Source: Patiria pectinifera (Eukaryota; Echinodermata; Asteroidea; Valvatida; Asterinidae). Taken from it: a DNA stretch of 64,000 nucleotides. The stretch lies in NCBI GenBank assembly GCA_029964075.1, contig CM057135.1, forward strand, positions 10,380,863 to 10,444,862, read 5' to 3'. Positions 21,167 through 64,000 of this stretch are shown in pieces. The notes beneath the pieces are model-generated. The model was not told the DNA's origin, searched no databases, and was given only the letters and a program-made list of their open reading frames with translations. Position 1 is the stretch's first letter. Every line of letters starts with the position of its first letter. A program made the position numbers and the translations under genes.

Positions 21167-21305
21167 TGATTCTTAATTTAAAAAACAAAGAGAGGAAAAC
21201 AAAAAATCATTAACATTTAACGTAATGTTTTTCGAATTGAAGCCAACGGCATGTGTGATGAACGGAGGTAAACAATCCGGAAGAACGACTATGATTTATG
21301 CTCAC

Positions 21306-21766
21306 CTCCAGTTCTTTAACAGCTTCGGTGATGGCAGGCATCAATTCCACGATTTTCCCCATTCGTTCACCCTCAGGTTGATGCCTCGTGGACTGCTCCA
21401 GAAGTCTCTATCTTTCTTTTGAGCAAACTCCCAAATCTTAATAAAAATGTGTCCCTGGAAAGGTTCTACCACGGCGTGGCGGACTCCCGTTAGCTCGAAC
21501 CTGGCAGATGGGTTCATCTCTGCGCGACGGTTTTTGTTTGGGGCAGCATTCGGGTACGGTGCACTTTCATCTTCACCACGGGTCATCATACGCTGCTCTA
21601 GTCGCTCAAGTCGTTTGGGGTCGGTACTGGCTAACCCCTTGGGCTGTGCTTGTGCGTGGGAAGGGTAATACTCGCGTACTTCGTTACGACTACCAGCAGC
21701 GTCGTACTGTAACGACGAAGATGATGATGAGGTAGGTGGAATGTAGAAATTCTTCGGTGCACCCAT
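21306..21766 (-). CDS. hypothetical protein, first exon (spliced to 20596-21166)
   Basis: Starts MGAPKNFYIPPTSSSSSS, then a disordered Ser/Pro-rich region and DPKRLERLEQRMMTRGEDES. Near 21425 one frame runs to a stop at 21341, while another (RKIETSGAVHEAST ... MPAITEAVKELE) stays open and ends exactly at a GTGAGC donor (21300-21305), so either a frameshift or a further small splice is involved. No known domain is visible. Position and strand suggest it is the 5' part of the main gene of the TIR element. Confidence 0.4.
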
Positions 21767-21780
21767 CTTGTCTTTTTCTT

Positions 21781-22174
21781 TCAGGTTGTGTATACGTTGA
21801 TGTTGTCGAATGACAGCGCTCTATTTATCCCCCTCAACCTCTTTTCGTGCTGTAAGATACTCTTTCTAAGTTCCACGCGCTTGTATCCCCTTTTAGGAGA
21901 AGGTATTGCGCAATCTTGTGAAACGCAGAGGTTAAAATTAATTTGTGACGATATCCCTAAAAATGTAACTCGTGACACCATCTCTAAACTATGCCTCGCA
22001 TTACGGGCGCCACCGTATGCCCTTTCAAAAAATATCGTAACGGTTCCGGCTAACCCCATGGACTGGTCAATAAGTACTTTTGGCCCTCCTGCGTCAACAG
22101 TCCCATTGTCCGGTATTGATCCCCACATAACGTGCCGACAGCTCACTAGGCTAGTGCGCAATCGATCGGATTAA
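21781..22174. other. overlapping ORFs of unknown strand inside the TIR element
   Basis: Long frames exist on both strands here (+ 21788-22174, 128 codons; - 21781-22161, 126 codons). Neither shows a known motif. The plus frame has a hydrophobic start and Pro/Ser-rich end and stops about 50 bp before the right inverted repeat. The minus frame would lie upstream of the hypothetical gene and could encode its leader. At most one is real. Confidence 0.3.
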
Positions 22175-31119: not shown

Positions 31120-31125
31120 CTGGTC

Positions 31126-32586
31126 TCATAAAGACCAAAGTGTCTTACTACCTGCTTGGGTGTGGGACACTTCCTGCCAAGCTGGGCGACTGTCACAACT
31201 CTCTTTGGCTCTGATGAGCCAACCCATGCAATTGTCGGCCAACTGGGCCTCCCTCAACACTTCATTTGTCAAAGTCGGCTGAGCCTCTATGCCCCTAGCC
31301 AGTGCCTCCTCTGGTGTGGCCTGGCTCCCGGAATCCTCATTGACCTCAGTTTTCTCAGCAGTGTCCTCACTTAGGCCACACTGCCTACAGGGCCGTCGAG
31401 ACAGCCCATCAGCATTACCGTGTTTCTTCCCCGGCCTATGCTGAATCTCTACGTCGTACGCAGAAATAATCTGGATCCATCGTGCCACCTGACCTTCGGG
31501 GTTCTTAAAGTTGAGCAACCACCGAAGTGCGGCATGGTCGGTCCTCAACGTCACTTTTCGGCCATACAAATACTGCCGAAAGTGCTTAATGTACACGACA
31601 ACTGCCAACAACTCTCGTCGTGTCACGCAATAATTGCGTTCAGCCTTGCTCAGCTTACGGCTAGCGTAAGCTAGGACTTTTTCCTCTCCATCTTGTGCTA
31701 GGGACAAGACCCCACCTATGCCGTCTCCACTGACATCTGTGTCCAAGAGAAAATCGCCCTCCGGAATTGGATAGGACAATATCGGGGCAGACTGGAGCTT
31801 AGCCTTAAGCTCATCGAATGCCACCTGGCACGCCTCGCTCCAAACAAACTCCCTCGCCTTCTCTGTAACGGCGTGGAGCGAACTCGCAGTTTCTGCGAAA
31901 CCTTTGATGTACTTCCTGTAATAGGATGTGAGGCCCAAGAAACTTCTCACATCCCTGACACATCGAGGGACTGGCCAATCAGCAACGGCTTGGACCTTCT
32001 TGGAGTCTGTTGCCACCCCGTCTGCTGAGACAATATGGCCCAAATAACTCACTAACCGTTGAAATAAATGGCATTTGCTGGGCTTCAACTTGAGCCCAGC
32101 ATCTCTCAACCTACCCAACACTATCCGGAGACGCTCTTGGGTCTCCTCAACCGTTCGACCAAACACAATGATATCGTCTTGGTAAATCAATAAGATTTCC
32201 CACTGCAGGCCCCTCATGACCTGCTCCATAAGGCGCTCAAACGTTGCTGGGGCGTTGCATAACCCAAAGGGCATGCACTTCCAGCGGAAGAGACCATTCC
32301 TCACTACAAAGGATGACTTCTGGCTGGCGTCTTCATCGAGAGCTACCTGCCAGTACCCTGACGCTAAATCTAAGGTACAGAACCATTTCGCCCCATGCAA
32401 CGCATCAAATGTCTCATCAATGCGTGGCACTGGGTAAGCGTCCTTGATGGTGACACCGTTAAGCTTCCGGTAGTCTACACAGAACCGCTTTGTCCCATCT
32501 TTCTTACCAACCAGGACAACGTTTGCAGCCCAGGGGCTATCAGAAGGCTCTATGATGCCTCTCTCCTGGAGGTCAACAACTTGCCT
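31126..32586 (-). pseudogene. gypsy reverse transcriptase and RNase H
   Basis: The frame is open from about 32586 (the first Met, 32430, is internal). RT motifs are FCVDYRKLN before that Met, then FCTLDLASGYWQV (first Asp), FGLCNAPATFERLM, the LIYQDDIIVFG active site, and LGHIVSADGV. RNase H has LDTDVSGDGIGGVL, REKEL-like RRELLAVVV and LRTDHAALRWL. The connection domain and NADGLSRRP motif follow. An in-frame TAG at 32587-32589 separates it from the protease side, and a TGA at 31126-31128 from integrase. The catalytic residues are intact. It would make cDNA in the particle. Confidence 0.92.
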
Positions 32587-33327
32587 CTAAATCTCCTCCT
32601 GGTAACTATATGGGTGACGCCTTGGCCGTTCCTTTACCGGCCTTGCATCTCCGGTATTGATGTGGTGTCGAACCACATCAGTCCGGCCAATGTCAAACTC
32701 ACCCCTCGAAAAGACATCTTGATATTCTCTCAAACACCCTTGGACCAACCCATGGTGTTCTACGTCAACGTTGGCTTTACACCGTTCGAATAAATCGACT
32801 AAGTGTTCGGGTATCTCAGGCTCTGCGGAACAAGTAGCCACTTTGCCTACCTGAATTGCACTCGACTCGACCGCGGAGATAACTCCTGCGGTTGTCCCCT
32901 TTCTAGCTGTCCTGGTCTCACGACCAGGATTGAAAACTCTCAGCGGAACGTACTCAGTCCCTGCTTCTACCAATGCTCGCCCTAGCGCTAAGCCTTTCGT
33001 GGCTAACTCGCCTCCTCCCTCAAGAGGTTCAACAATTGCTGGCCCAACCAGCCTGTGACATTTCTCAGCCACTACTCCAGGCACGACAGCTTCGTGACCA
33101 GACGGTATCTCTGTGGTCTCTGCAACCAACACTCTACCGATGAACGGTTCACCTCCACCATCGGTACATTGGATGTTCTCACTGTTGAGCATCCACCTCT
33201 TGCTTAGGAAGTCCAAGTTCCCACCTGTAGTCAACAAAAAATCCAAACCTAAGATGCCAGCGCATCTTATCTCTGCAAAAACTGCCTTCACCGGGGAAAT
33301 AGTACGACCAATCTGAATGTCCACTCA
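32587..33327 (-). pseudogene. gypsy protease C-terminus and linker
   Basis: In the same frame as its neighbours, this part begins after a TGA at 33325-33327. It contains CAGILGLDFLL, the usual G-x-DFL end of retroelement aspartic proteases. A variable linker follows, leading into RRHPYSYQEEI just before the RT, where it hits TAG at 32587. No separate enzyme is encoded; this is a polyprotein section. Confidence 0.8.
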
Positions 33328-33987
33328 TGCCGCTCCCAGCACTTCCAGTGGTTTACCATCAACCTGCTGGACGCTAACTTCATGTGCAAGCAAGGCAGGC
33401 CTTTGCTCTTTTGGCATCTGGTAGTAGATCCTACTACTAATCAATGTATCAGTCGACCCAGTGTCTACTAAAAATCTGCATTTTGTCTTCCTGACAATTC
33501 CTTCAACAAATAAGCCATGCTTTGGGCTCTTGACCACACTTGGGGTCACAATAAATCTCTTGTCGCAGCTTGTCGCCTGCGAACCATTTTCCCCACCAAG
33601 CTTGGGGTGCTTTACTGTTGAGGACCCTTCGGAGTCTCCAGCCTGCCCGCGGGTCCTCCGTTTGGCTGGTCTCCGTTTCCCTGCTGGAACTTCGTTTCCT
33701 TGGGTGGCTTCTTGCAACTTCTGGCAAAATGGCCTTTCCCACCACAATTGAAACATGTCAACAATTTGGGATCCTTTGGAGATACCTGCATCCCCCGGGG
33801 CACTTCCCCTTCTACCTAAATCTGACAATCTGGCCAAGATGGCATCCAACTTTTGGCCCTGTTCACTGAGTTCAGATTGTAACTTGCCAACTTCCGACTC
33901 GACTTTACCAAAAGCCTCAGACTGTTCACCCACGGTGACTTCGAGTTTCCCAACTCGGTCATCGGTTGCTGAATCGAGAGCTCTGAC
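33328..33987 (-). pseudogene. gypsy gag zinc knuckle and protease active site
   Basis: The frame carries the protease active site FLVDTGSTDTLIS near 33440. Upstream, a CCHC knuckle (CFNCGGKGHFARSC, about 33728-33770) lies in a different frame (33612-33803), so a pair of compensating small indels near 33790 and 33630 is implied. A coiled-coil-like stretch (KVESEVGKLQSELSEQGQKL) precedes it. The knuckle would bind element RNA and the protease would cut the polyprotein. The upstream link to gag is broken by TAA at 33988-33990. Confidence 0.8.
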
Positions 33988-35190
33988 TTACTTGACTGGC
34001 TTTCCCTCAAGTACCCTCTGCCTCTCGACCTTCTCGTAATTCTCGGTCTCTAATGCGGCCTGTATGGCCTCGTCCAAGTTCTTTGGACGTGCCCTATGAA
34101 TCCCTTCACGCACCGTCTGACTCGTGACGGCATCGTGGAAGTGATTCTTGGCAAGTCGATCTCGTGCGTCTTCCTTCAACTCAGGATATGCTTTTACTGT
34201 AAGCTTACGCACCGCTTGCCCTAACTCTTGCAAGGACTCCTTCGGCCCTTGCCGACGGTGTCGCAATTAGACTAAGTAATTCTCAGCCTGCAAGCCGGAA
34301 TCAAACCTCCTCTTCAACAACTTCACCATTTCCGCGTAACTATACTCATGTCCACATGCGGATCCTTCTCCCAGTACTCTGAGAGCATTTCCCTGAAGGC
34401 TTGCAGCGAGGAATGTAGCAGCTTCCTCATCATCCCAGTGGTTAGCCTTCTTACACGACTCAAAATGTCTGTGGTACTGTCTCCACAAGACCTTACCACT
34501 ATACCTATCGGGAATGATGTTTGGACGGTGCCGCTTCCGTCCCAACTGCTTCTTCAACTCACTCTCATTACATACCCTTGGCTCACTTTTTAATGGCCAA
34601 GGGCCTACCGACGGGACAACTTCAACCTTTCCCGATCGGTCAACACTATCGCCTACTCGGATAGCAAAACTCATTAGTTCTGCCCTCAACTTCTCAGGGG
34701 TCAAAACCTCCTGTCCCTCTGCAAAGGGATTATTCCCTGTCGAACTTTGACCTGGTCTTACGTTACTCAGACCATCTTCTTTATACGCACCAGGCATCTT
34801 AGCCACCGGCGTTTTACCCTCTACCGATAAGTCCAATGCAGGTTTCCTAAAGGGTGTGCTCTCCCAAAAGCTCACCTCTTTCATGCCCTCATGGACTATC
34901 TCCGGCGACATGGCCACACTCGGCATCATTGCCTTTGCCCTGAACGACTCATAGCCAGTTTCGCTTGGGACTCGAAACTCAATTTCCGGGTCAACCCGAA
35001 ACCGATACTTCTCTAGCTCAGCCTCTTTTGCAGACTTTTCTAGCTGCAACAACTGATGCTCCATTCGCAAGCGACTCAATTCCTCTTCGAGTGCCTGCAC
35101 TTTGCTCTCACCTGGCGAGGCAACCGCACCACTCTGCCTGCTCATGGCAACGATAACCGACAACGGACTCTTTTTAACAACACCAAACAA
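33988..35190 (-). pseudogene. gypsy gag
   Basis: The start at 35190 (MFGVVKKSPLSVIV) is the first Met after the primer-binding region. It has a coiled coil (KVQALEEELSRLRMEHQLLQ) near residues 30-60. The capsid-like core follows, with KVLWRQYHRHFESCKKANHW and EAATFLAASLQGNALRVLG. An in-frame TAA at 34267-34269 interrupts it between AENYLV and the RRQGPKESLQELGQAVRKL segment that normally follows. A second TAA ends this part at 33988. It forms the particle shell. Confidence 0.85.
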
Positions 35191-35247
35191 TTTAGTAAGC
35201 TCTCCGAAAGCTTTCGACTTATTAGCGAATTTTACTCAATCAATTCC

Positions 35248-48810: not shown

Positions 48811-51188
48811 GGGGGGGGGGTCTAGGGGGTCTGGACCCCCCTTTTCTTTTTCTTTTTTCTTAGACCTGACCTAAAGCCCGGAAAGCTCGGAAATCATTTT
48901 CGAAAAAAACCAAAACTGCCTCCGTGCCCCCTTTCCCACCCCCACCCCCAGTGCCGAATTATCCAAAAGGCACAGTAAGCACCGTGACTAGGGACTACAC
49001 AAAAAAATATGGGGGCCTACGAAAAATCGAAAGCCTACAAAACTACAACATTCTTACAGTCACTCTTCATACTAGTACAAAGTTTCTCGCAAACCTTAAT
49101 ACATGTAATAAGCCTACATTTTAATTACTGGGGAAATCGAACATGTGTGTAATGTGTCCAGTGTTTGTTGTGAAGGGGCTTAATCATACATGCAGCCTAT
49201 GCGTAAAGAGAGTCAAACGGAAAGAGTGTAGGCCCGTCGCCAAGGAGGGACCCGGAGGGGCCGCCTCCCGGCGAGCAATTGGTCCCCCCCCCCCGTCTGC
49301 AAAATCCATGAGCATATAAATATATATATATATATACTTAAATCTTGTGATGTGCCCCCTAGCTGGTACTGTGCCCCCGTATGCACAGAGCTTGCAACGG
49401 GGCTGCTCAAGTAGTTAGGATGGGGGGGGGCGGAGACAAATCCAATTATCTCCCCTAAAAAATATATATATCAGTCTAGGCACCAGACCAGACTATTAAT
49501 CTTTGATATCAGCCACCCTCTTGTAGATCGCAACACAGACTCACAGCGACTGGTGCGCGAGTCTACATTTGCCTTGACTCTTAAGTGACATCAGTTTCCT
49601 CTCGTGTTTTAAAGTCGGGCTGTCATAACAATGAAGGTCGTGCTGTATGTTATGACAAATTCTATAGAGCCTCAGTCAACACATTCAAGGTCGGGCTGTT
49701 TATAGGCCTACGTCAAATTCTATGGTGTCTATTACGCATAGGTGCATTTATAATCAGGATGACTCGGTTCTAAAACTGGGTATTACTTGTAATACTCTAA
49801 ACACGAAATCAGTCGATCACTGCCAAATCTAGAAATCTATTTCTGTTTGCTATTTAAGTAAAGGGGGGGGGGGGATTTGGCATAAAAGGCTTGGTGTTTC
49901 GTCACAACAGTGAGTTGCACATCGCATCAAAGCTGTTCACATCTTAATACACTCTGCATTTTGTTGGTTATATACTGTTTGAACTCTATTTAAAGGGAAA
50001 ATACAACATTTGCAAACATCAAAAAATAAAACTACCAAATCATTTTGAAATACCTTGCTGGACTGTTAGTGAATGACAGTGTAAAGCATCTTGTAAAATC
50101 ATTGCACCTGGTATACTGTCATTTTCAAGAAAAGTGGTATTTTTGTATCAATTTCCAACGCTGATCGGCCGAAATTTTTGAATTTTTTGAAATACTGGCC
50201 CCAGTTGACCATCGCACTTGTTTGCAATCGATTACACACCAATGAACGGGTACAAGCCAGCTAGACTGGTTCCCTGACCTTACAATTCCCCAATATATGT
50301 AAACTGCTCTGTTTCTTCTTAAATGGAGTCAGGGAACCAGACTACAGGAAAATGATTGTTTTTCTTGGTTTATAGCATTTTCGAACCCAAACCCTCAAAA
50401 AAGTCAGTGTAACTATATTTGCTATATATTTCCAACCCCCCAATTCCATCCATTCCTGAAAATTACAGCAAAAGCAAATTATGAATATTCCCTTTAACGC
50501 TTTAAAAAGATTGGTCTCTGCAAACTACGTTTGTAGCCTTACAACCAGCAGTTCGAACAGGAACATCCATCTTTTGCTTTCAAAGGTAGGCCTAATGCCT
50601 TAAAATGCTATATAAGACATCTATATTACATGATGTGATGTTTGTAACTACAAAATGTATGTGACGAAAAGAGTTGTAGGAAAGTTAAATAACTCACCAG
50701 AATGTCAATATACAAAACAGCCAAAACTGGGCTGAGTCCATCAATATTGGGCAACTGATCACACCGTGAATTCAGGTGATCGCGGTCCAGCCAGAACGAT
50801 CATTAACGCACAGAAAGTTTGGTCAATAAACACACAAAAGTCTACAAAAGCAGCTTGGATTGATCACAGTGTCAATTAAGAGTTGAGTTTAGCTTTAAAA
50901 CTTACGTGTATGTGTGTAGATAATACACTATTATATTGCGTGTGACAAAAAACCCTACATGTGGGCTATAGTGCAATAGCAGTCGACCATGCATGCACAA
51001 TGGGAGTCCAACTGCGTAGCTCTGTGGTACAGCCAGACGCAGTCCGGCAAGCACAATGGTTGACCTTCCTTTGAACTAACACTTATACAAGGTGCGTTAA
51101 AGGTGCAGTCTAAAACATAAAGGGGACGCTTCAGAGTTGAGTATAAATGCTTAATTTGTTTTTGTTTGTTTGGGTTTTTTTTCAGACG
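48811..51188. other. no recognisable genes; mixed repeat fragments
   Basis: Holds G-runs (48812, 49426, 49863), a short TA run near 49318-49336, and the dispersed-repeat piece at about 50108-50140 shared with 9943-9975. No coding frame is supported. Confidence 0.4.
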
Positions 51189-51506
51189 ATGGCTAACCCA
51201 ATGCAGACAGTTGACATGACGTACAGCCAAGAAGCATTAATCTTGGCAAATAATATGGTCAACGAGACTAGAAACTGGATTGGAGAAAAGATCGGCAGCA
51301 TGATGCAGCAATGGGAGATTGCGAAAAACCACTTGGAGGAACACCGCCACGACATGGCATTAAAAGTTTTATCTGTAACGCCAGACTTTAATCAGTCACC
51401 ACCTCTACCAATTTTAATAAGCAATGAAATGGGAGAAGGGGATCAACAGACTGAAAGGGTTCCAAAAAAAACCTGTTTCCCAGAAATATTTATAACAAAA
51501 TTGTAG
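51189..51506 (+). CDS. unknown small protein at the left end of the virus-like cluster
   Basis: A 105-codon frame starts MANPMQTVDMTYSQEALILA. It is helical in its first two thirds (NNMVNETRNWIGEKIGSMMQ) and then Pro-rich and disordered. It has no cysteines suggesting zinc binding and no membrane segment. The next 80 bp lead into a frame of the virus-like cluster on the same strand (51580-51822), so both may be pieces of one decayed gene, this being the N-terminal helical part. A pyrimidine tract and CAG lie just upstream, which could be chance. Assignment to the cluster is inference from position and composition. Confidence 0.4.
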   Translation: MANPMQTVDMTYSQEALILANNMVNETRNWIGEKIGSMMQQWEIAKNHLEEHRHDMALKVLSVTPDFNQSPPLPILISNEMGEGDQQTERVPKKTCFPEIFITKL

Positions 51507-51579
51507 CTTAATATAATGATATAGACCATCGAGTGAATGATAGTGTTATCCCCTGCGTGGTAGACCATGAACGTTATAG

Positions 51580-51822
51580 TTTAAGCTATTTGAAAATTGC
51601 GTAAAACACTGTAATGAAGTATATAAACGAGGGGAAAACTGGGCTTTATACAACGCGGCAAACTTTGGGAATTGGCTAGAAGTTTCTTTTAAAACATTTC
51701 GACGGGATAAACAAAGGGGGAGGATACTTTCACCTAACTTTGATTGTTGGTTAAGGCAGAACTGCAATATAAAGAAGAATTGGAGTAAGACACTCGGAGA
51801 GTTTTATCTACTCGTAAAATAG
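51580..51822 (+). pseudogene. virus-like cluster protein, W/K-rich helical domain
   Basis: The open frame contains NEVYKRGENWALYNAANFGN, WLEVSFKTFRRDK and NFDCWLRQNCNIKKNWSKTL, with regularly spaced Trp, Tyr and basic residues. This pattern is familiar to me from a conserved uncharacterised protein found beside the other genes of this cluster in cnidarian and other aquatic-animal genomes (memory, not searched). It has no start codon of its own and ends at TAG (51820-51822). A DNA-binding helical domain is plausible but not shown. Confidence 0.45.
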
Positions 51823-52039
51823 TACCCACAATTACTCCGCTGTTGTCTATCGTTAACATGTTTTAGAAAAAAACAAAAAGCATATACGAACTTTTTTTTA
51901 GGTGAATACAAAGATGTAGGCCACAAATGAACACATGTTAACTTGCGATTGTAATCACTGTGGTCCACTGTAAATAATATACAAATGTATAAATAACTGA
52001 TGTTTGAATATTGAAAAACAAGTATTAATTAATGAAAAG

Positions 52040-52350
52040 CGATATTTGTGTACAAATTAACGATTTTCAAAAATTTTCTAAGTGCCACAAAAGCACACTG
52101 CAATGTGCTTTTTCCATATGTTGTGTACAAATGGTAGATTTTCTAAAAATTATTAAGTGCCACAAAAGCACACTGCAATGTGCTTTTTCCATATGTTGTG
52201 TAGAAATGGTAGATTTTAAAAATATTTTCTAAGTCAGCGCCAAAAGCACACTGCAATGTGCTTTTTCCTTATGTTGTGTACAAATTAACGATTTTCAAAA
52301 AAAATTCTAAGTGGCACAAAAGCACACTGCAATGTGCTTTTTCTATATGT
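52040..52350. repeat. four tandem ~78 bp repeats, each with a 9-bp-stem hairpin
   Basis: Four copies of a unit contain AAAAGCACACTGCAATGTGC followed by TTTT. Each forms a stem AAAAGCACA/TGTGCTTTT with a six-base CTGCAA loop (near 52096, 52164, 52243 and 52320). Spacers carry tgtgtacaaa and gattttnaaaa words. The repeat lies between two genes of the virus-like cluster. A short plus frame through it (52032-52232) is a by-product. Confidence 0.8.
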
Positions 52351-52682
52351 TGTGTATAATTAAATTCTACCGAGTGCATTTTGAAGATGAAAATGTAAAA
52401 TAAACATTTATTAAAAATCTGAAAAGTTTTCTATTGTTTTTATTTTGGGGTAACGTTTGAGTATTATAAGGCTGATGGTCCTAGAGAATTTTTTTATGTC
52501 AGGGTGGTATATTTAATTTGGTGATAGAAACAGAGGGTGCTATTAACGGGCACTAAGAGATCTGATTTCAATTATATACAGATAGGTGCTGTTCAATAAT
52601 AATATAAAAAAAACAGAGTGCGATATTTAATTCTTTAATTAAAAATGCAATCATTTTTATTTAAATTAAGTTTATTTATTAG

Positions 52683-53158
52683 ATGGAATACTTTGAGACG
52701 CCGCAACTCGGGGATAAGTGCAATCACCATATAATCATCGAGAATGGTTTCCTAATTTGTGAAACCTGCGGTGAGATAATCTCACGTTACTTTGATTTTT
52801 CGGCAGAAAATGTGCAAGAAGATCGTATCAATTGGTCCATTTTAAAAAGGAATAAACAAAAGCCCTCGAGAAACTGATTTTATCCGTGTCTCCACAGCAA
52901 GACTCAGAAGACGGTGAAGAAACGATCAATAAATATAACGAGCTCGTTAATAACAAAACATTGAGGGGAAACGGATGTGTCAAAAGATCATTAATAGCCG
53001 AGTGTTTTTATTATGTCCTTCGATGAGACAAAGAACGAGTTAGAGATTTAATTAAAGTGACTCAAAATCAATTTAATAAAGCCTTAAAAAGATACCATGA
53101 ACACTACAATAAAGGCGGGGCCGAGGGTGACACCCTAAGAGGTGAAATAGAGGTATAA
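52683..53158 (+). pseudogene. TFIIB/VLTF3-like zinc-ribbon transcription factor of the virus-like element
   Basis: The Met at 52683 opens MEYFETPQLGDKCNHH. A zinc ribbon follows (C-x-H, then LICETCGEIIS with C-x2-C), then the FDFSAENVQEDRINW segment. After a frameshift near 52870 the sequence continues with RGNGCVKRSLIAECFYYVLR and VTQNQFNKALKRYHEHYN, resembling the cyclin-like part of TFIIB-type factors and poxvirus/NCLDV late transcription factor VLTF3. An in-frame TGA lies near 53023 and the frame ends at TAA 53156-53158. The role would be recruiting RNA polymerase to viral late promoters. The zinc ribbon is clear; assignment to VLTF3 rather than TFIIB is inference. No introns are seen, unlike a host TFIIB gene. 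Confidence 0.55.
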
Positions 53159-53186
53159 CACGGTGGATCGCTTTCATAATGTTCAT

Positions 53187-53799
53187 TTACCGAGAATTCG
53201 AACTTGCAAGTTTTTCGATAAGACATTTTTTTTCTTTTGTCAGCTGTTCGTCTACCCGTTTTTTAACTTCTTTTTCAAAGTCTGAATCGTTTTTTATTTT
53301 TTTGAAGCTTTGTGCTGGTCTTTGTTCTAATTTTCTGCTTAAGCTCGTTAAATTTGCGAAATCAATACAAACTCTTCGTGCGATTTATCTCTGTCGTTGA
53401 TGGCTCGAGACACGTATTATTCAATCGTGTTAAGTTTTGAGTCCGCTAAATATTTTATTCTGGTCGTGCTTTTTCAGCTTGGCGGATAAGCGATTCTAAG
53501 CATAATATTTACACCAAAAGCGCCTATAAACGTTCCTTCTAGCACCAATCCAACGGGGGCTGATGTAACACCCAAGAGAGCGGGAATACTGACAACCCCC
53601 GCTATAGCCCCCAATCCTTCTAATCCTATCTCTACGTAATTAATAGTGTCGATCACTCTCTTATTTTTTTTTTAAGTGCGCTCTCGGTGGTCTCTCTCTC
53701 TTTTAAGAGTAAAGATCGAATCTCTTCAATCTGTTTAAGTCTGTACACTTTTGTTTCTTCGTTACTATAAATATCGGGGTATAATACATTATTACTCAT
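53187..53799 (-). pseudogene. virus-like cluster membrane protein with glycine-rich hydrophobic core
   Basis: Reading from the ATG at 53799 (MSNNVLYPDIYSNEETKVY), a charged coiled-coil segment (RLKQIEEIRSLLLKERETTE) comes first. A hydrophobic Gly/Ala/Val-rich core follows (LEGLGAIAGVVSIPALLGV, GLVLEGTFIGAFGVN) that could insert in a membrane. A Lys-rich region, a YLADSKLNTIE / YVSRAINDRDKSHEEF segment and a charged tail come last. At least three breaks occur: in the A-run at about 53675, near 53480, and near 53410. The order coil-hydrophobic core-short HEEF segment matches a conserved small protein of this cluster elsewhere (memory). It may be a virion membrane component. Confidence 0.5.
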
Positions 53800-53814
53800 G
53801 TTTTAGATATAAAA

Positions 53815-54945
53815 TTAAAAGATCTCTAACTCTATCATTATACTCACCCCCTTGTTGTTGATGATCTGTCCTTTTTCACCTCTGATTGAAAATATCAGTT
53901 TGTCGATTATACCGTTTTTAAGTTTTTTGAAACCCTCGACTCTATCAGGCTCGGGTTCGCGCGTACCCACAGGTACAATTTTTTAGATGTCAGACGGTCG
54001 ACCATCGAGGAAATTTGTACTCGTACTTAATTGCGGGCAGCGAATAAACAAAAATGTAAACGGATTAACGTTGTAAGACCTCGTGTACACCACTTTGGGT
54101 ACCAGTTGTCCTTTGGGTAAATTGAGTAATCGAGAGACTTCTGTATATAAATGCCATTTGAGTTTCACGTCGGCTACCACCAACATCACCCTTTTAGATT
54201 CTCTAAATATTCGAAAACTTACCCTGCAGGGCCCTGGGTATAGAATTTAAAATGAAATTGAAACCAATCGACGTCGTACCACCCCGGTGGTATGGTGACT
54301 GAACCGGAGACTCCGGCTGGTAACGGCACTATATGACTCGGAGAAATAAAATTAAAATTATCACCAGACACAATAAGACTTCCCCGTATTGTTACATCCG
54401 CTTCTCTAACTACTCTCACATTATCTTTGCTTGTTCTACCTTGAATATATTCTACCGCTATAGTTTTACCTTCAGTGATGTGTTGGTGTCTTTCATATAA
54501 TATTTTTATAAACAAATTAATCGTTTTGAGTTGTAGGTCGGTTACTGAGCTTTCTTCTCTTATATTAGCTAAAAACAAATATATTTTTTGTTGTTTGTGC
54601 TATTTCTTCTCTGAGCGATTCTATAGCAGATTCTAGTCTATCTCATTCATACGCTTCTATAAGATCGTTTATTACTCTATTGAAAACATTTTCGTCGTTA
54701 ATTAAATAGTCGTAGGGTATGTTGGGTACAAGTCGCTCGATAAAATCTCTATCTTTTACCCATCAGGATTGTTTTCTTGTGGTCTTTCAGCATCATCAGA
54801 AGTTTCAGCGGGTCTCCCGTCTTTTTGCAAAAATCAATCAATCTCCGTGGCACTGGAAATATTAAAATATCCGGCGTTAAACAACACCCTTTTTACGCGT
54901 ACAGATTTTTGACCGTTTAAATTATCTACGACGTCTTCTTAAAAA
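53815..54945 (-). pseudogene. virus-like cluster structural protein, jelly-roll-like C-terminal half
   Basis: The N-terminal part (54580-54945) is in pieces: SVRVKRVLFNAGYFN, YPYDYLINDENVFNRVINDL and an ESLREEIAQTTK coil, separated by stops. The middle (54219-54578) contains GKTIAVEYIQGR and the SGSVTIPPGWYDVDWFQFHF stretch. After a frameshift near 54225 it resumes VSFRIFRESKRVMLV, NVNPFTFLFIRCPQLST, GRPSDI and ends MIELEIF (53815-53817 stop). Beta-rich repeated segments and the FIRCPQLSTSTNFLDG motif suggest a jelly-roll capsid or penton-like protein; this is inference from composition and remembered relatives. It diverges from the plus-strand gene starting at 54958, with only about 15 bp between their starts. 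Confidence 0.5.
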
Positions 54946-54957
54946 TGAATTAAAATA

Positions 54958-57403
54958 ATGAGTGATTTTGAGTCGTTAAAAAAGCAGAAACTACACTGTT
55001 AAAAAAATCTCTGTTCATTAACAGTTGATTCTATTGTCAATTGGCATTACAGGAGTTACTGTTTTTGCACAGTATATTCTACTGTTTCTTTTTTCTCTGT
55101 ACATTAACAGCAGATTCTACTTTATTTGATATTGTTCAATTACAGGAGATTCTACTGTTTTGCAACAGATGATTAAGTGTTGTCGTTTTGTAACCTAACA
55201 GCATCTTCGCTGTTTTTGTTTGTTCCTTAACAACTCTCTGTCACTGGACAAAAGGTTGTTTTTGTTTAAACGGTGATTATTAATGGGGGCCGATAAACGA
55301 CAAAGTGTTCATGTTTGTATCGAGGATTGCGAATGACAGGTCCTGTGTGAGCTTCAGTTCACAGATATTCTCGTATAATGAACGTACTTCACATGCAGAT
55401 ACTTGTAACACGTCATGTAATGGCGGTGCTATCGATAAAACTCATGAACGTTCGAATGTAGATGCTTGCACGTTGGCTTACGGCGAGTCATGCTGCAATG
55501 ACAACCAGGCAACTTTCAACTGATGTTGTCGTTGACAATCAGGCTTACAAACTGAAACCGCTTCTATATAGCGCTTCTCCTTGAGAATGATAGTCATTTA
55601 CAATACAAATACAAACATGTAAGCAGAAACGGATAAGTAAATTTGCTCCAAGCTGCTACAACATCACACTCACGCGTGGCATACGCACGGACGCAACGGG
55701 AAGTTGTATGTTAATAGTATAGTCCGACTCCCGCGCGCGCCTTCCTTGGCAACATACTGGTACCCTTCAGCGTTTATGCCACAGTAACGTTGCACTACTA
55801 CCGCCTACCTGGGAAAAATCACGCGATACGGCCGAACCCTGTACAAAAAAAGATGATTCTCTGTTGACCGACAGCGATGTGACTGTGTTCTAACAGAGTC
55901 GAAACGGGGGGGCTTGTTCAAAACATGATGTTCCTTGTGCGTGCACAGAATTTTAGTTTAACAGCGAATATTCCGTAACCAAACAGAGGAATGGAGAAAA
56001 CTGTACGTAAGCAGGAACACATTTGTAGATTTACAGAAAAATCCGAAAACAGTAACATCTACTGTAAATTTACAGAAATTTCATCAGAAAAACAACTGTT
56101 AAATAACGCAATTTTTTACAGTGTAGGTATAGCTGATCAGGTAACGAAACACGTAAATCAAAATGTAGCCAAGGCAACCGGGCTAACGCATCAAGCTGCA
56201 TCCCAGGCAAAGTTTTTAAACAGCACTTAACCCACCCAGTGAACTGGAGGTCAAAGTTAATAATACCAAGGGGTTTTCAAGCTTGTTTCCCGACTTAACC
56301 TCGGACTATAAATTGCCTCACATCACAACGGACTAAACGCGAGCAACCGTTACGTTTGGGCCATCTTTAACTTCTATTTATATTTTACGGTCAGAAAGAT
56401 CCTGTACGACTTTGCCGCTCCTTTACCGGGAGATGACGCATTTAACGCTTTAGACAACATTTATCATCACAGAGCATGTACCGGTACCTGTTTGTTGTTT
56501 GGCATAGATCAAAACAAGTCTTTTAAACAGACGAGAGACACAAACTCTAACGGTTTGGGTACCTCATACATATTTAATAAGGGCAAGTTTGTGGCGGTTG
56601 GTGAATGCGATAGAGCATTACCCGACAACCCCAACGTTATTTACGGCGGCTATCACGGTCTAGATAGTCCTAGAAAGAGTGGAAGCCATTACGTTCCTTG
56701 GACGGTTATTTACATCGAACAAAATGAATCGGTACAAAAGGCTTGGTTAGATTTATACCCGACACGAGTTCGTTTACCCCCGCAGGAATCATAAGGATCA
56801 ACGAATCAATCAGATCTTACGTGTACGCTTTATTAGGTGCGCAGGCTCAAATAAAAACGAGCGTATTAACACCGGGCACCGGATGAGATGCTCAGAGACA
56901 ATTTAACGTCATCGTAGAAAACATCACCAACGCGGAAGACAACATGGACACGAGTATCGATCAATTTCAAGACTCTTTGCAGTATGCCAGAACGCCTTTA
57001 AATTTTGTGGTGAAACTGGGTTGTATTTAATTCCATCTGATATAAACTTGACGGTTGAAACGCACGATGTAATAACAATCTTCAAATTGCTACCCAGAGT
57101 ATGAAAACTGGTTTGGTGTCGGAAATAAACTCACAACCTCAACCGGACGACTCTTTTGATGACACCGATTACGTCGCGCCACCAACACCCCCAGAGCCTA
57201 TGACAAACGATGTTGTATCACCAACACCAGCACCTACACCCTCACCAACACCAGCACCAGCACCCTCACCTACAGTTTTAACCCAAGAACCCACGAAACT
57301 GCAAACTCACCAAGACGAAAATTTATCGTTGACGGTAGGAATGTTAGCTATCTTTGGCATGGGTATTTTGGCTTACGAGGTAACGCAATCAGTCACACTC
57401 TAA
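54958..57403 (+). pseudogene. virus-like cluster membrane-anchored protein, split by a MITE
   Basis: Starts MSDFESLKKQKL at 54958, is interrupted after 12 codons by the 1.13 kb element (54994-56123), and resumes in frame at 56126 with QNVAKATGLTHQAASQAKFL. It then passes through frameshifted segments: YHHRACTGTCLLFGIDQNKS, GECDRALPDNPNVIYGGYHG, SGSHYVPWTVIYIE (56440-56794), then RSYVYALLGAQAQIK and TPLNFVVKLGC (56800-57030). The end is a proline-rich stalk of APTPSP repeats and a C-terminal hydrophobic helix MLAIFGMGILAYEV (57101-57403). The layout, a soluble domain, Pro-rich stalk and tail anchor, fits a virion surface or membrane protein. Frame changes occur near 56230, 56300-56440, 56795, 56886 and 57030-57100. 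I recall similar proteins from cnidarian genomes. Confidence 0.55.
54994..56123. mobile_element. CACTGT-terminal non-autonomous element (copy 2), inside a virus-like gene
   Basis: Begins CACTGTTAAAAAAATCTC and ends CAATTTTTTACAGTG with TA at both borders (54992-54993, 56124-56125). It is the inverted counterpart of 7275-8385. It interrupts the gene starting at 54958, and the coding frame on both sides is continuous if one TA is removed with it. Confidence 0.85.
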
Positions 57404-57447
57404 TAAAAAAAAGGCCTTACCAACTTTGTGCTGGTAAGGCTTTTTTG
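57404..57447. terminator. hairpin between convergent virus-like genes
   Basis: AAGGCCTTACCA, a nine-base loop, then TGGTAAGGCTTTTTT form a near-perfect stem flanked by A-run and T-run. It sits immediately after the stop of the plus gene and about 30 bp before the stop of the minus gene, as a bidirectional terminator would. Function is inferred. Confidence 0.6.
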
Positions 57448-57475
57448 GGGGTTTAAACTTTAATAACAACTATTA

Positions 57476-58181
57476 CTACCATCGTTTTTGCAAGTACGCC
57501 AACACCAAGGCTCCCACACCCGAAAATACAGCCCACACGTGTTCGGCCAACCACGATACAGACTTACTCAGCGCGTTAAATATCCAACTTAATACGCTGC
57601 CTATGATACCCGGCAGAGCACCCAACGCGCTCACTCCGAGTTTTTAAAGAGCAGATGCAAAATTAGCGAGTTGTTTTGAAATCCACTCTTTTTATACCAC
57701 CTTTTGGTGGAGTCGGTTTTGGAGGTGTTGGCGATGGCGCGGGTGTGACACCCGCACTACGGTCACACCTTGTTCTCTGAACAGAGTTCTAATCTTTTCC
57801 GCCAGAGTCGTGTCGTCGCCTAATATTTTATTAATCGTTTCTTATTCTAGCGATCTGACTTTTGAGCCCTCGTTCGTTGGCTTTTGCGGCTTCTAATCTG
57901 GCGGATCTTTCAACGCTCAAGTCGCTCAATTTATGGTTTAACTCTCGTCGACCCTCTTCGCTGTGCGATTCGTCGAGTTCTTGTCTCGTGGCAGCTATCT
58001 CTCGGTCGAGTTCTGTGAGACGCGATAAAATAAAGTCTAGGTTACCTCTTAACGTCTGAAGACTTTTGTCTAAGCCCTGGAGTTCTCTGTAATTCAATCC
58101 TTCCGTTTGAGCGCCGGTGTCGCGTTGTAAATCGTCTATAATCTCGGTTACCTCATCGGTGACGCTGGGTAGTTCTGTCAT
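57476..58181 (-). pseudogene. virus-like cluster coiled-coil protein with C-terminal membrane-active region
   Basis: Starts MTELPSVTDEVTEIIDDLQR. A long coiled coil follows (QGLDKSLQTLRGNLDFILSR ... EIAATRQELDES). The frame stops at 57831, but the sequence continues in another frame with LGDDTTLAEKIRTLFREQGV. After a further shift comes a Pro/Gly linker, then EWISKQLAN, a stop (TAA near 57644), and GVSALGALPGIIGSVLSWIF / SKSVSWLAEHVWAVFSGVG / LVLAYLQKRW before TAG at 57476. The amphipathic Gly/Trp-rich end could disrupt or span membranes. Domain order matches a conserved uncharacterised protein of this cluster in other aquatic animals (memory). It has at least two frameshifts and one stop. 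Confidence 0.5.
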
Positions 58182-58220
58182 GGGGATACTCTCGGGTTGT
58201 ACTTGTTCGACCGGGTTAAT

Positions 58221-58675
58221 TTAATAATCCTTAAAACCCAATCTTGTTCTAATGAAATCTCTAGGTTTTAACCCTAACGCTTTTGCATTTTTTTCTCTAC
58301 TCAGTAGACCCAATATTTTTTAGGAATTTTTGCATTTTTTTCTCTACTCAGTAGACCCAATATTTTTTTAGGGGTTTCTTATATCCGTCAACCTTACTGG
58401 ACCTTTCTCCGTCTGGTAAAATAGACCGTCTTCATTGCTGACGAAATGTTCGAATTGTGGAAGTAACGGTTCGTCACCTCTGTTAAAATGTTTGTAAAAT
58501 CATCGACGCTATCACTTGTGATCACGTTTCTTTCTCGATATAAAACCTCATCTATGTCGGTAGTGAGGATTGGTGGTGCAAGAGTATCAAAAGTGTCATC
58601 TACATTGGTCTCTGCTACATCATCGTCGTCTTCGTTATTGTCAAAGGGATCTATCTCAGGTCCTCCTTCAGCCAT
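58221..58675 (-). pseudogene. virus-like cluster acidic N-terminus protein
   Basis: Starts MAEGGPEIDPFDNNEDDDDV, very acidic for the first 30 residues, then mixed. The first frame ends at 58394 (TRRRKVQ), and a short C-terminal segment with KALGLKPRDFIRTRLGFKDY ends at TAA 58221-58223. Between them is a ~45 bp tandem duplication (58277-58371). The start lies about 22 bp after the stop of the next gene upstream (58698). No enzymatic motif is visible. Confidence 0.45.
58277..58371. repeat. two-copy ~46 bp tandem duplication
   Basis: The block tttttctctactcagtagac followed by ccaatattttt occurs twice in tandem, starting near 58279 and 58326. It disrupts the minus-strand coding frame. Confidence 0.85.
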
Positions 58676-58736
58676 TTATTTAATAAACCTATTTAAATTA
58701 CGTCGTTTTGACGATACTGCCCGGTAGTATACCCTG

Positions 58737-61700
58737 CACGGCAGTTCCACATGCATAGCGCGTACACACAAAAAGGTTCTGTAATGCGTTAGTTCTGTAT
58801 TTGTGAACTCCAATGATGCAGGTGACGTCACACAACATGGCGCCGTCCACATACAGAAAAAAAACATCCATGTTTCGTCCCAAATAATGTCAAAATTAGA
58901 CACTTTAGAAATATGTTTTATTATCATAAATGACAAGCAATGACGGGATATGATGTTTTCTTTAGGAAATAAATGAGAAAGGGGTATAATTTATATGCTA
59001 AGGTGTGTTTTAGGGGAATTTTCGCCAACATTTTTGCAATGCGGGATGAATTTATTCGCGTATCGAAGACTTTTAAAAGCCTTCAATAAAAGCGAAACGC
59101 ACAATTTCAGAAGAAATGTTTATGTTGATACCATTATTCAGTTATGAAAATAGCCAAATCATACTTTTTCCTGGTTGGGTCGACATTTTAAAATAAAATA
59201 TAGACGTTGAAAGTCAGACTACGATTCCAAAGCTTCGCTGAGAATTCGGGCTGCAGCATCGCTGGTTCACGATCTAGTATCCCACTAATACATGCAAACT
59301 GGCGCGCGGGTACCAACTGGCCTAGCGCCGCGTGTGTTGTGTACACAAAAGCGCCGTACAACGTGTACACGTACATGTACATTGTACATGTGTACGTAAA
59401 ACCATCGCATTCGGGACAATCGAAAGACATTGAATAACAAATGCATAAAATGCAAAACAGATTACATGGAAATAAAGAACCATCTATATCTGTCTTTAGA
59501 TGAAAACACTCACTGTGGACAAAATAAACACACAATCCGAAATTCACAAATGTTTAGTGTTGTACAGTGAGTGAGTATTGTACAGCATATTAAAGCAGCC
59601 CAATCCAAAACCAAGCATGAATTTGCCATCAGTATAGCTAGACACTCTATCCTCTTAATTTTCTGGGGAAGTTGCTGACAATTAATTGGATCTATAGCTT
59701 AAACAAAACAATAACAAATAGGTTTTTGTTTGGCAATAAACGCATTCTTTATTTCACAACCAATCCATATCATTTAAAAACAAAAGTTTCATTTACAGAA
59801 GTGAAACTTCACAACAGCCATATTTTACAAGTAAATAAAGTGCACATGTAATGCAGGCATGAACTCAACTAGTGAAATCAGGTTTGGCAAATTATAAAAC
59901 TATGAAAAGCCTGAAAAATTAAGTAGGGTAGTTGCAGTTGATTCAAGAAAGTGATTCAAAAATTCAACTTTATGAAAGGGCAAATGGATTTAAGCATACC
60001 CTCACACCTGAAGACAGTAAAGGGTTTTTTTTATATTTATTTGTTATTAATATTTTGTTGGAGAAAGGAGCTTGCACTGCAGTTCAACTGCACTATTTCA
60101 TAAGTGGTGGTGATGGCAATTTCAGGTTTCAAATTTTCGCTTAATTAAAATTTCACATACGTACGTATACACGTACCTGGATGACCTGCACCCGCAGATT
60201 TACAAAGCACTACATCACTTCACAATTTGATGCAAACACAGTCTACTGTGAAGTTCTTTTCCAGTGTGAATGCATCATACATCGTCAATTTTGTTAAATA
60301 TTTTAAAGAAGTTTTCACAAGTACAATCGACGACTCTTGACTTTTCGACGACTATTTACTGTTCTTTGAATAAATACATAACATGAAAATACATGAACAT
60401 GTACATGTAGTCACCTTTTGTCCTTTAAATACACTACGACGTGTCGCACTTACAGCATATTTTGTGAAATGAATCACAGGATGCGTCATCCTAGGGATAC
60501 AATGATGCATCGTAGGTTACAATAAGTTTCATGAAATCAGGTACAGATTGTCATCGTCACTACGAACGACACTCTCGCACCCGTGTGTGCGCTGTACGCG
60601 CACGTGCTTACAGAACCGGGATATTTGGTGTTTACGAACTGATATCCGCCACAGTGCGGCACTTTTAGAGCGCACCCTGTACATTTTTGTTTTCACGAAC
60701 TGACACCCAAGCATGATGCAGCAATATCCGTGTACTTGTGCGATTATACATGTACAAATTTTTCATTAAAAAGCGATTTAATTGGTAAAATTAAGATCAG
60801 TGTCAGTTCGTGAAACCGAAAATGCATGGGTGCGCTCTAATAGTGTCGCACTGTGGGGGATGTCAGTTTGTGAAACAAAAAATATTCCGAATCTGTAAAT
60901 ACTCATGTGTGCGCAAGTGTCAGTTTGTGGTGACATTGACAAGATATATACTATCTGAAATGGCAATAAGGACAAAACAGAAACTGTCCTGATCAAAGAT
61001 TACCTCCAGTTATCTCTGAAATGCCCAAACTATCTCAATTCTCTCAACCCCCCCCCCCCACCCCCGGCAGTAAGATATTCATTATGAAATGTTTACGTCA
61101 ACTATGTTATTCAAGCATCTGGGACAGGGAGGCAGCTAACAGACTACACTTACCACTCCCAATTCAGATCACACTAAAAATATTTGTACATGTACTCCAC
61201 ACCATGGACTATCGGAAAGGTTTAGAGTGGGGGTTGGGCTGTTTGAATGAACATGGCCATGTCATGGCATCGTCAGGAACTGATACGGAGTTCAATCGCA
61301 ATGGGTGGGTAGTACAGATCAGATGCGGAGGAATCATAAGCTCGTCCATTATACCCGGCCATGCATGTCCTTGCCATCTTCAATCCAGAAATAGGAAGAA
61401 ACTCTTCAAAACCTGAAAGCACAACAAGAATATAACAAATGGAACAAAGTCAATGGGATACTTTGAGTTGCATGGTGGCAGCAAATACACCAGTCCTTTT
61501 CTGGTGTTGACGTCAATTTGAACATGTGCACATTAGGTTAAATGTGACGTAAAAAAATGAAAAGGACAGGTAAAAGGAAGCGTCTCAAAAGTATCTGTTG
61601 AAAATTATTGCCAGGTTATTTTCAAGATTGTTGTCTGTGCCTTTGCTGGGATTTTTCTTGCATTGAATATGACAGTACTGGAATATGAGTGTTAAAAACT

Positions 61701-63639
61701 ATAGAAGATAAGAAAGTTTCATATTTTATCTTTTTCTATAGGCACAGACATATACATGTACATGTAAACATGTACTTGTACATGATGTATGTACATGCAT
61801 GTACATACATGCCATGATCAATTTCTAAGTAAAATAATATCAAGATGCTCACCGATGAAAATTGTCAAATTTTCTGAAGGTATCCTTCGTCAGGGCAGGG
61901 TACGTCATCTGCGTGCCATGGTGGAATGCCGTACACTCCGCATAAGAAGAAATGTAGGCCAACCTCCTCCACAGCGTCCGAGAGACAACCAATAGGTCTA
62001 GATGGCAAATTTAAGTACACATTCAAGTTCATGTACAGTTACGTGACGTTTGTGTTTGTACACAACAAGAACAAGAGCATGCATTACATGGGTTTCGAGT
62101 AAACTCCGTACCCAACAATTAACCACAAGACTGTTACCCACTCGGTCCCTAACAGACGGGTCTGACCGTCTGAGACAGCATGGCCAACTCAGTTCCACTT
62201 CCAGGTCAACTTGGTCCCAGGTACAAATGTATAAAAGTCGGTCCAATGTCAACTAAGCATGCTAAGCATGCTAAGGGGGTAAGTCAAGTCATTTAAGTCC
62301 CAGGTCAAATTTGAAATAAATGGAAAAAAATACTCTACAATTAATTATATGACTGAGTGAGGGCAAAAAAGAAATAGCCTAATGTATTGACGGCCCCGGC
62401 AATGTAACTTGCATGTAGGGCCTACATGTCAAATCCTTTGTTTACGCATTTAGATTAGAACATACATGTACAGTACACAGTTTCCTTGAGAAGTTTTCAA
62501 GAACATTAATTAAATGAGCAATGTCAGGCTCCTGCCTGCAAAGAATGACCTCCATTCCTCCATTGTCCATCATCAACATGATCAAGACATCATTCATGTT
62601 CCTGCATGATGCATGCCAGCAAATCCTGACCACGCTGACCAAATTTTACATGAAATTTAAAAATCATAATGAAATTGGAGGATTCAGGACTGTTACTGTT
62701 AGAATTAAGCATTGTGATTATTTATTACGAATACTATTTTCTGGGTAATTGCAACTAGCAAGGCACACTGGGCAGAAATATTTCTTAGATGAAAGTCTTT
62801 TACATACACGAGTCGTTGCGTCGTCCAAAAGTGCGTGCTGTGGGATAGCTCAAGGCGCCTACGCTACGACTGTTTCATGTACGACATTACTGTAATGACT
62901 TCCTGTCATGGCGCGGCGTACGTACATTGTACACAAAATCCTTGTGTCGCAGGCTAAAAACAAGGAGAAACTACAAAAACTACATCTTCTGAGCAGAGTA
63001 AATACATAATCTGTCGGCTTACCTTTGAGATTTCCGTCTGAATCTCCGAAATCATGCCAAAACATGGCCACGAAGGTCCCCACTCGTCACGCCATGACAC
63101 TGCATGTGCACTTCGTACGTTGCGACTTGACGAATTCCTGTTTTATTCACCCTCAATATTGCCTAAAATCTCACGAAAGCATGTTGTCCCAAACCTTTCG
63201 TCCATATCAACGTGAACTTAGATAACTCATTTATTGAGATTGACCAAGTATGCGTCACAAAATTGCGTCTTACTTTATATAAATGATGTTTTCTCGAAGT
63301 GGAAATGAGGGCACGAAAACGCTAAATCGTACCAGGTCACAAGTCACACGCTGCATAAAAAATACACATTATCATAATTTGTGCACGCTAGATGGCAACT
63401 GTCGACCGTACATAGCTTCATTGATGGTTTGTTAAGCCTTATTTGGTAATCTGTTGCATATTCATGTTAATAAACCAATCAATTTTTATATCTTTCGCGG
63501 GGTATTTAAATCCACCAACGAAACAAAGGGATCGCTGCGCCTAAGGTTTATTTACATCGCGCTAGGGTGTCACGTGGTATTACCACTAACTCCATCTCGC
63601 CAACAGAGGGCGTACTTTTTTATGCGTGAAACTGCCGTG
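58737..63639. mobile_element. 4.9 kb element with CACGGCAG termini and CCTG target duplication
   Basis: Inverted ends CACGGCAGTTCCACATGCAT (left) and ATGCGTGAAACTGCCGTG (right). A perfect 4 bp duplication CCTG flanks it (58733-58736, 63640-63643). The interior has candidate minus-strand exons, for example one ending before a GTAAGC donor near 63024 (FVAMFWHDFGDSDGNLK), a 61855-61990 frame ending at a GTGAGC donor, and 61220-61417 starting after a TTTCAG acceptor. None shows a recognisable transposase core. The left 2 kb are non-coding. Superfamily is unknown; a 4 bp duplication is seen in several cut-and-paste groups. Confidence 0.75.
60598..60914. repeat. fold-back repeat inside the 4.9 kb element
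   Basis: Arms 60598-60706 and 60800-60914 are inverted copies (about 80% by eye), sharing GTGTCAGTTCGTGAAA, GGTGCGCTCTAA and CGCACTGTGG blocks, with a ~93 bp loop. No coding capacity. It may be a nested MITE or part of the host element. Confidence 0.65.
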
Positions 63640-63847
63640 CCTGGGTCACCAACCAATTTTGCGTGGCCAGAGCTCCACTTATAATACCCGTCAATTTACC
63701 CATATCTTCTACGCTTAGTTTATTTATATCCGGCGCTTTCATTTTGAGTAGTTTATTTCCTACCATGGCGTATCCCATCGAAAGACCCGATATGACGGCT
63801 CCGTGATAAATCGTATTTGCTATCCCGCTGGTGTCAAAGTTACTCAT

Positions 63848-64000
63848 TGTTTTTAATATAAACATTTTTACATTGCTGTTTATTCCATGTCTAGCAGTTG
63901 CCTTACTTTTTAGTACCAGCAACCCCAGTCCTACTACCGACGCTACAGCTCCCCACATCGCCCAAGAGCTGTAATTTACAGCATCGTCCGATGTTACATC
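63848..64000 (-). pseudogene. virus-like cluster membrane protein, C-terminal part, runs off the window
   Basis: The frame is open from the right edge: SDDAVNYSSWAMWGAVASVV followed by GLGLLVLKSKATA. It has one strong membrane helix and a basic tail. It reads straight into the start of the next small protein without a stop, so its own stop has probably been lost. It shows that the virus-like element continues to the right of this window. Confidence 0.45.

Follow-up and report, generated by a model that had tools for sequence, protein, structure and literature searches.

Polintons insert with a 6-bp target site duplication, their terminal inverted repeats typically have an AG tip, and in animals they have mostly been studied as relics. 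Their gene set includes an rve-type integrase, a protein-primed PolB, an A32/FtsK-type packaging ATPase, a double jelly-roll capsid protein and a Ulp1/adenain-type protease. Adintoviruses are defined by a Hexon and a PolB that BLASTp recognises, plus an integrase chromodomain, and chimeras of Polinton-type replication genes and poxvirus- or megavirus-like capsid genes have already been described (excerpts of PMC11071296). Here, we describe an integrated element in the genome of the starfish Patiria pectinifera. The stretch analysed, called the window below, is 64 kb long (C7:10380863-10444862); coordinates such as 49410-64000 are positions in it. The 40 kb to its right and pieces of other copies were also examined, and 613.5 Mb in 1020 contigs were searched. 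Locus pieces are designated L0xx and have coordinates of their own, L009 beginning at the right edge of the window. The window from about 49410 to 64000, together with 2.3 kb of the right flank, is a broken copy (copy 1) of an integrated double-stranded DNA (dsDNA) element; a second copy (copy 2) lies in the flank. Very probably, the cluster represents a Polinton-class dsDNA virus that was endogenised and has decayed in place.

The original prediction, made from the window alone, had read the cluster as a dsDNA virus or virus-like element, unless the flank proved to lack any viral hallmark gene. The flank contains an ATPase, an integrase, PolB motifs and a member of the capsid family, and other copies have terminal inverted repeats, in agreement with that reading. 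The A32-like packaging ATPase matches PF04665 (2e-8 in the flank and 1.4e-9 in another copy) and the rve integrase matches PF00665 (1.1e-8 and 3.3e-11, respectively), all above the Pfam cut-off. The PolB pieces contain, in L010, the sequences KLMNNSVFG and YTDTDS, which we take to be PolB motifs. The lineage is assigned to the Polinton class because of the integrase, these motifs and the terminal inverted repeats.

Six of the twelve left-end pieces (L053-L064) begin with AGTAGGTAT(T/A)AGTGGGGG, and the same tip, inverted, closes two of the three right-end pieces (L065 and L066). The left end of L062 aligns in inverted orientation with three right ends (96.8-97.7% over 186-259 bp). The terminal inverted repeats start with 5'-AG (AGTAGG...CCTACT). 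A search of the genome for the 27-base tip with at most two mismatches gave 87+89 sites, and 0 for the reversed pattern. Among the 100 termini listed of these 176, 84 form 42 facing pairs with a median distance of 16.5 kb, and 34 of the 42 pairs span 15.8-17.2 kb. The only site duplication seen, in the one pair examined (C14:7556589/7572684), is a 5-bp CTCAC adjoining both tips.

The composite gene order, assembled from different copies and given in element orientation, begins with TERM (a name coined here; plus strand, in some copies) and the TFIIB-like gene (plus), followed by the Gly-rich membrane protein gene, the beta-rich protein gene and a third gene (all minus). In the middle, the structural tail-anchored protein gene (plus) precedes seven minus-strand genes, ending with the ATPase, the capsid and a 140-aa protein. 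The right end comprises the integrase (plus), PolB (minus) and the terminal repeat. Copy numbers are lower bounds, as 150 of 756 capsid candidates and 150 of 677 TFIIB-like candidates were scored. For 72 of the 150 listed TFIIB-like rows, a capsid gene is also listed downstream and in the opposite orientation, in 65 cases at 7.6-8.4 kb; other arrangements of the two genes within 25 kb were found 0 times among the listed pairs. Unrelated host genes were rejected as an explanation on account of this fixed arrangement.

A concentration of copies can be noted on C7:1-24000000, a 24-Mb limit set after looking at the data: 36 of the 150 capsid and 43 of the 150 TFIIB-like listed rows lie there, against 5.9 expected by length. 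Possibly, this is a low-recombination or sex-linked region.

The comparison of copies indicates that the family spread recently and that the sampled copies are under purifying selection. Nineteen capsid loci, compared over a 636-bp stretch, have a median DNA identity of 98.9%, versus 96.3% to copy 2, a similarity possibly overstated, as these loci are the best matches. The ratio of nonsynonymous to synonymous substitution rates (dN/dS) is 0.08 for the capsid (12 intact of 19 loci), 0.14 for the integrase (16 distinct of 18) and 0.17 for the TFIIB-like gene (20 distinct intact sequences; 29 loci, with 8 places fetched twice), the loci having been picked by similarity to a protein query and with intact frames only, which lowers dN. 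An ATPase value of 0.51 was dropped, since frameshifted copies had been compared without alignment. Chance open reading frames (ORFs) are ruled out by the purifying selection.

For the capsid protein (422 codons), 1442 homologs were found at E<=1e-3, of which 120 were listed; 36 homologs were aligned. Capsid_N was touched by 28 of these 36 (best E 1.3e-4) and was matched in five of seven homologs scanned singly, at a similar position in the five. A competing weak match, PF21734, occurred in 2 of the 36, and the capsid profile gave nothing significant against solved structures (best E 0.12). By these weak profile matches, the capsid leans to the type of the nucleocytoplasmic large DNA viruses (NCLDVs).

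The two copies in the window and its flank are nested. The capsid gene of copy 1 ends at L009:2277 and the terminal repeat AGTAGGTATAAGTGG begins at L009:2278, so that copy 2 appears to have been inserted within that gene; this position of the boundary is also why a pair of independent, adjacent insertions was rejected. The flank contains the pieces of copy 2 that encode its ATPase, capsid, rve integrase and PolB. Copy 2 is broken too: its frames reveal a reverse-transcriptase element between its L009 and L010 parts, and its PolB is split across L010, L011 and L012. The 1.5 kb past L012 (L148) had no match to element loci.

Several points weigh against the Polinton-class assignment, besides the selection of loci for dN/dS. 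The only site duplication seen is 5 bp, against 6 bp in Polintons. All five Capsid_N matches in singly scanned homologs are below the Pfam cut-off, and the element's own capsid protein and its nearest homolog P0002 have no Capsid_N match at E<=1. The PolB pieces scanned matched no Pfam PolB model, and tblastn found no match between them and eight PolB loci of another lineage; one piece gave a below-cut-off match to ribosomal L31e, presumably spurious. A maturation protease (Ulp1/adenain-type) was not recognised in the frames scanned, which are part of an intact copy's frames. We did not find the missing part of copy 1, or a right end for either of the nested copies, in the examined flank.

Within the Polinton-class reading, the element might be a purely intracellular transposon with capsid genes as passengers. 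The high copy number in one genome, the clustering on C7:1-24 Mb and the nesting fit this version, whereas the low capsid dN/dS suggests that the capsid was needed for spread, in a sample that favours conserved copies; we regard it as unlikely.

Copy 1 and its genes were mapped as follows (percentages and pieces are from tblastn unless stated otherwise):

49410..49722, plus strand: left terminal region of copy 1, with a decayed terminus (homology from 49466; tip by eye)
51189..51849, plus strand: TERM, broken, an orphan family beside the terminus (64-75% to L009:3668-4528, three pieces with 0, 2 and 1 stops)
52042..52356, no strand: tandem array of a 75-bp unit, 4.2 units, with the palindrome AAAAGCACA..TGTGCTTTT in each unit
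52683..53152, plus strand: TFIIB-like gene, broken, zinc ribbon and cyclin-like part (in two pieces, 90% and 76% identical to the L043 protein, the second piece with 2 stops)
53193..53799, minus strand: Gly-rich membrane protein gene, broken (50-75% to L043:1970-2614, three pieces with 3, 3 and 0 stops)
53821..54563, minus strand: beta-rich protein gene, broken (40-80% to L038 and L043 frames, in pieces)
54595..54938, minus strand: homolog of the frame L009:6975-7478, broken (57-72%, two pieces with 1 and 2 stops)
56129..57388, plus strand: structural Pro-rich tail-anchored protein gene, broken (to L010:1334-2760, five pieces; the ORF 57101-57403 has an open 3' end)
57414..57440, no strand: perfect hairpin with a 9-bp stem and A- and T-runs, between the convergent structural and amphipathic genes
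57479..57841, minus strand: amphipathic/membrane protein gene, broken (64% to L010:2860-3183, 2 stops)
57834..58304, minus strand: coiled-coil protein gene (68% to L010:3304-3666, 1 stop; 116-aa ORF at 57834-58181)
58371..58675, minus strand: acidic small protein gene (47-49% to L010:3645-3968, two pieces)
58737..63639, no strand: 4.9-kb insertion of foreign DNA that does not belong to the element (the flanking positions 58736 and 63640 join at L010:4026-4029)
63640..64000, minus strand: membrane protein gene, 3' part (continues into L009:1-559)
L009:889-1462: remnant of the copy 1 ATPase, after the membrane protein gene
L009:1470-2277: remnant of the copy 1 capsid, after the ATPase

The compact cluster of small genes in alternating orientation that had been predicted is present in the window, as are the zinc-ribbon gene (52683), the beta-rich, Gly-rich membrane, tail-anchored and coiled-coil proteins, and the hairpins. 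At least eight small genes had been proposed; tblastn finds counterparts in positions 51189-64000 for ten of the genes seen in related copies, and their order agrees with that of copy 2 (L009-L010), but most are broken. Eight of the ten match only in at least two pieces or with stops inside a single piece; of the other two, the acidic protein gene matches in two pieces and the last gene continues past the window edge. The predicted limits of 51189..64000 had to be revised. The left start lies about 1.8 kb farther left: DNA homology to the left end of copy 2 (87.5%) runs from 49466, and agtagttagg at 49410 is, by eye, a decayed AGTAGGTATA tip. Positions 58737-63639 are foreign. The expected continuation beyond the right edge was found, but copy 1 runs only to L009:2277, where copy 2 begins. 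The foreign insertion has inverted repeats near 60608-60898 and may be bordered by a 4-bp site duplication. Rfam and tRNA searches of 49000-64000 gave no matches.

The suggestion of a TFIIB/VLTF3-like factor stands in its broader form: the protein is TFIIB-like by profile comparison, but it has no convincing match to Pfam TFIIB or any other Pfam model. The P0001, L043 and L035 proteins do not match Pfam TFIIB (PF00382) at E<=1, and a genome search with PF00382 returned 4 rows, none at the listed TFIIB-like element loci. The family profile was compared with 79 archaeal homologs (TFBs), with column shuffles as the control. Its first part scores 29.7 against the TFB zinc ribbon (reached by 0 of 100 shuffles) and its second part 23.3 against cyclin repeat 1 (reached by 1 of 100); the zinc-ribbon and cyclin-like parts are colinear with TFB, and the score of the whole protein is reached by 0 of 60 shuffles. 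The hhalign probabilities are low (49% for the zinc part, 6% for the cyclin part and 18% for the whole protein); therefore, we consider the product a putative TFIIB-like factor in the broad sense, not a proven TFIIB. Among 11 candidates, one homolog was found, at 96%. Such a gene is unusual for a Polinton-class element, and a partial literature search found no report of one in a Polinton.

A T[AT]TAAA box starts 18-28 bases before the ATG at 9 of 14 gene starts; these include the TFIIB-like gene in two subfamilies and two starts from the decayed window copy. Dinucleotide shuffles of the 14 starts gave a mean of 2.0 and a maximum of 7 boxes, and 0 of 1500 reached 9. As the motif was suggested by four of the 14 genes, the other ten were used as a hold-out set, which gave 5 boxes, a number reached by 2 of 1500 shuffles. 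Sliding the interval by 6 left 5 and 6 boxes, and sliding it by 12 left 2 and 2. A box anywhere in 40 bases is found at 10 of 14 starts (reached by 5 of 1500 shuffles) and at 6 of the 10 hold-out starts (67 of 1500), so that the position is the notable part. There is no box at the PolB, beta-rich, coiled-coil, structural and TERM starts. At the canonical spacing of RNA polymerase II (Pol II), transcription starts downstream of the TATA box, and the start would here fall at or past the ATG; hence the idea of a different start-site rule.

The hairpin at 57414-57440 has a fold z of -4.56 (0 of 200 shuffles). Hairpins of this type were found at 225+208 sites in the genome with at most three mismatches, and at 0 sites for the reversed pattern. 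The other two convergent junctions have no hairpin, either by eye or by scan. A scan for an A-run, stem and T-run gave 0 hits in the other 49 kb of the window; its single hit beyond the element was in the L060 flank.

Palindromes also recur in tandem arrays near the termini. The palindrome of the 52042-52356 array, which forms four hairpins, was reached by 5 of 400 shuffles. In L065 (8.9 units) and L066 (11.9 units), an array of an 83-bp unit carrying the palindrome AAAAAGCCACTCNGAGTGGCTTTTT separates PolB from the right terminal repeat; in L043 (6.9 units), such an array is situated between the TERM and TFIIB-like genes. The 75-bp array of copy 1 occupies the same place as the array of L043, and the two sequences are unrelated; a common form in two unrelated units is suggestive, not proof, of a functional array. 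Stems of at least 9 were found in 5 of 14 arrays with a period of 55-110 (L065, L066, L043, L034 and window 52042). The decayed array of copy 2 (L009) has a consensus stem of only 4 bp, with one unit retaining a hairpin; nothing remarkable, or at most a weak palindrome, was seen in the arrays of L045, L048, L051 and L067. The 74-bp array of L067 was not counted as support, its palindrome being weaker (reached by 27 of 400 shuffles). The boxes and the arrays are likewise unusual; we claim no novelty for them, as there are papers that mention Polintons together with promoter motifs or hairpins.

The TERM family comprises 143 rows in the genome and has no homolog at E<=1e-3 among 107 candidates outside it. 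Of the 90 TERM places examined, 27 have a listed element gene at a distance of at most 15 kb; 22 of the 27 are at the left side and 5 at the right, and 29 of 30 relations are on the plus strand of the element. Clusters of TERM-like frames were also observed at C7:38.72, 41.79 and 42.09 Mb, with no listed element gene within 15 kb.

These features can be arranged into a possible life cycle. The rve integrase would join the linear form of the element, ending in terminal inverted repeats (AGTAGG...CCTACT), to host DNA, PolB would replicate the DNA of the element, and the A32-like ATPase would pack it into a capsid of the NCLDV-leaning protein. Many genes would be read from short AT-rich promoter-like signals near the ATG, probably aided by the TFIIB-like factor, and hairpins would mark some gene ends. 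Virion formation, past or present, the target bound by the TFIIB-like factor and the ending of transcripts at hairpins are what we infer here. We further propose, tentatively and with considerable doubt, an animal Polinton-class virus that, much like large DNA viruses, brings along gene-expression signals of its own. It would have a TFIIB-like factor, TATA-like boxes so near the ATG that transcription would begin unusually close to it, hairpins of the A-run/stem/T-run form at gene ends, and a subterminal palindrome array serving replication, packaging or insulation and possibly paired with the orphan TERM protein. For transcription, such a virus would either divert the Pol II of its host or rely on the polymerase of a helper virus.

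Dependence on a helper leads to a sub-reading compatible with the Polinton class, in which the element, similar to a virophage, is the satellite of a large DNA virus infecting the animal, and its promoters and hairpins fit the machinery of that virus. The boxes near the ATG and the hairpin at gene ends agree with it, as does the fact that no RNA polymerase subunit was recognised in the frames scanned; endogenous mavirus-like elements (EMALEs) carry promoter motifs implicating giant viruses (excerpts of PMC8547959). However, no helper virus is known here, and the element has a TFIIB-like factor of its own, whereas a virophage is said to be without transcription factors (excerpts of PMC11464507), so that we consider this version quite improbable. 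An endogenised NCLDV fragment, its A32 ATPase, NCLDV-leaning capsid and TFIIB-like factor coming from a large virus, would accord with PF04665, Capsid_N, the TFIIB-like profile match and the boxes near the ATG, but is highly improbable given discrete units of about 16.5 kb bounded by terminal inverted repeats with an rve integrase and PolB motifs, and given PF04451 and PF04947 having no genome match, a weak point, as the control genomes gave none either.

Forty PF03175 PolB rows were considered as the polymerase of this family and rejected, as none has a capsid or TFIIB-like row closer than 20 kb among the 180 such rows (of 300) on the contigs concerned, and as tblastn gave no match between the PolB pieces of this family and eight of the loci. 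These loci (L001-L008 and others), with PolB frames of up to 1455 codons, probably represent a second Polinton lineage in the same genome. In IMG/VR, 24 stretches matched a pattern, and none was confirmed. Acidic protein frames lie beside a FRAHPTL-type minisatellite at window 19571-21820 and at L011:1008-1511; one frame of the former recurs at L011, and another is PC4-like by eye. Open frames at window 2958-5906, 11403-17652 and 29740-35235 look, by eye, like LINE-like, BEL/Pao-like and Gypsy-like retroelements, respectively.

Dozens of copies bounded by terminal repeats, together with intact capsid genes apparently under purifying selection, make the virion question testable for animal Polintons. 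A TFIIB-like gene and promoter-like signals in so small an element bear on the way in which virophages, NCLDVs and integrated dsDNA viruses divided their transcription machinery. Relatives could be sought by their palindrome arrays, which are easy to score.

We know of no TFIIB-like gene in EMALEs, the mavirus-like endogenous virophages, which also differ from our element in having protist hosts with a known giant-virus partner. Both occur in many integrated copies with promoter motifs at genes (excerpts of PMC8547959). Meldviruses, such as Meld23486, combine an adintovirus-like PolB and integrase with virion proteins resembling those of poxviruses or megaviruses; the likeness is by description only, and the main text contains neither "TFIIB" nor "transcription factor" (PMC11071296). 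With adintoviruses, the element shares PolB, integrase and capsid, and an animal host. From the Polintons/Mavericks (Polintoviricetes) it differs in the NCLDV-leaning 422-aa capsid, the TFIIB-like gene, the palindrome arrays and the 5-bp site duplication (one pair), and a protease was not recognised in the element frames scanned. Like them, it has an rve integrase, PolB motifs, a packaging ATPase and terminal repeats starting with AG, in integrated units of about 16 kb.

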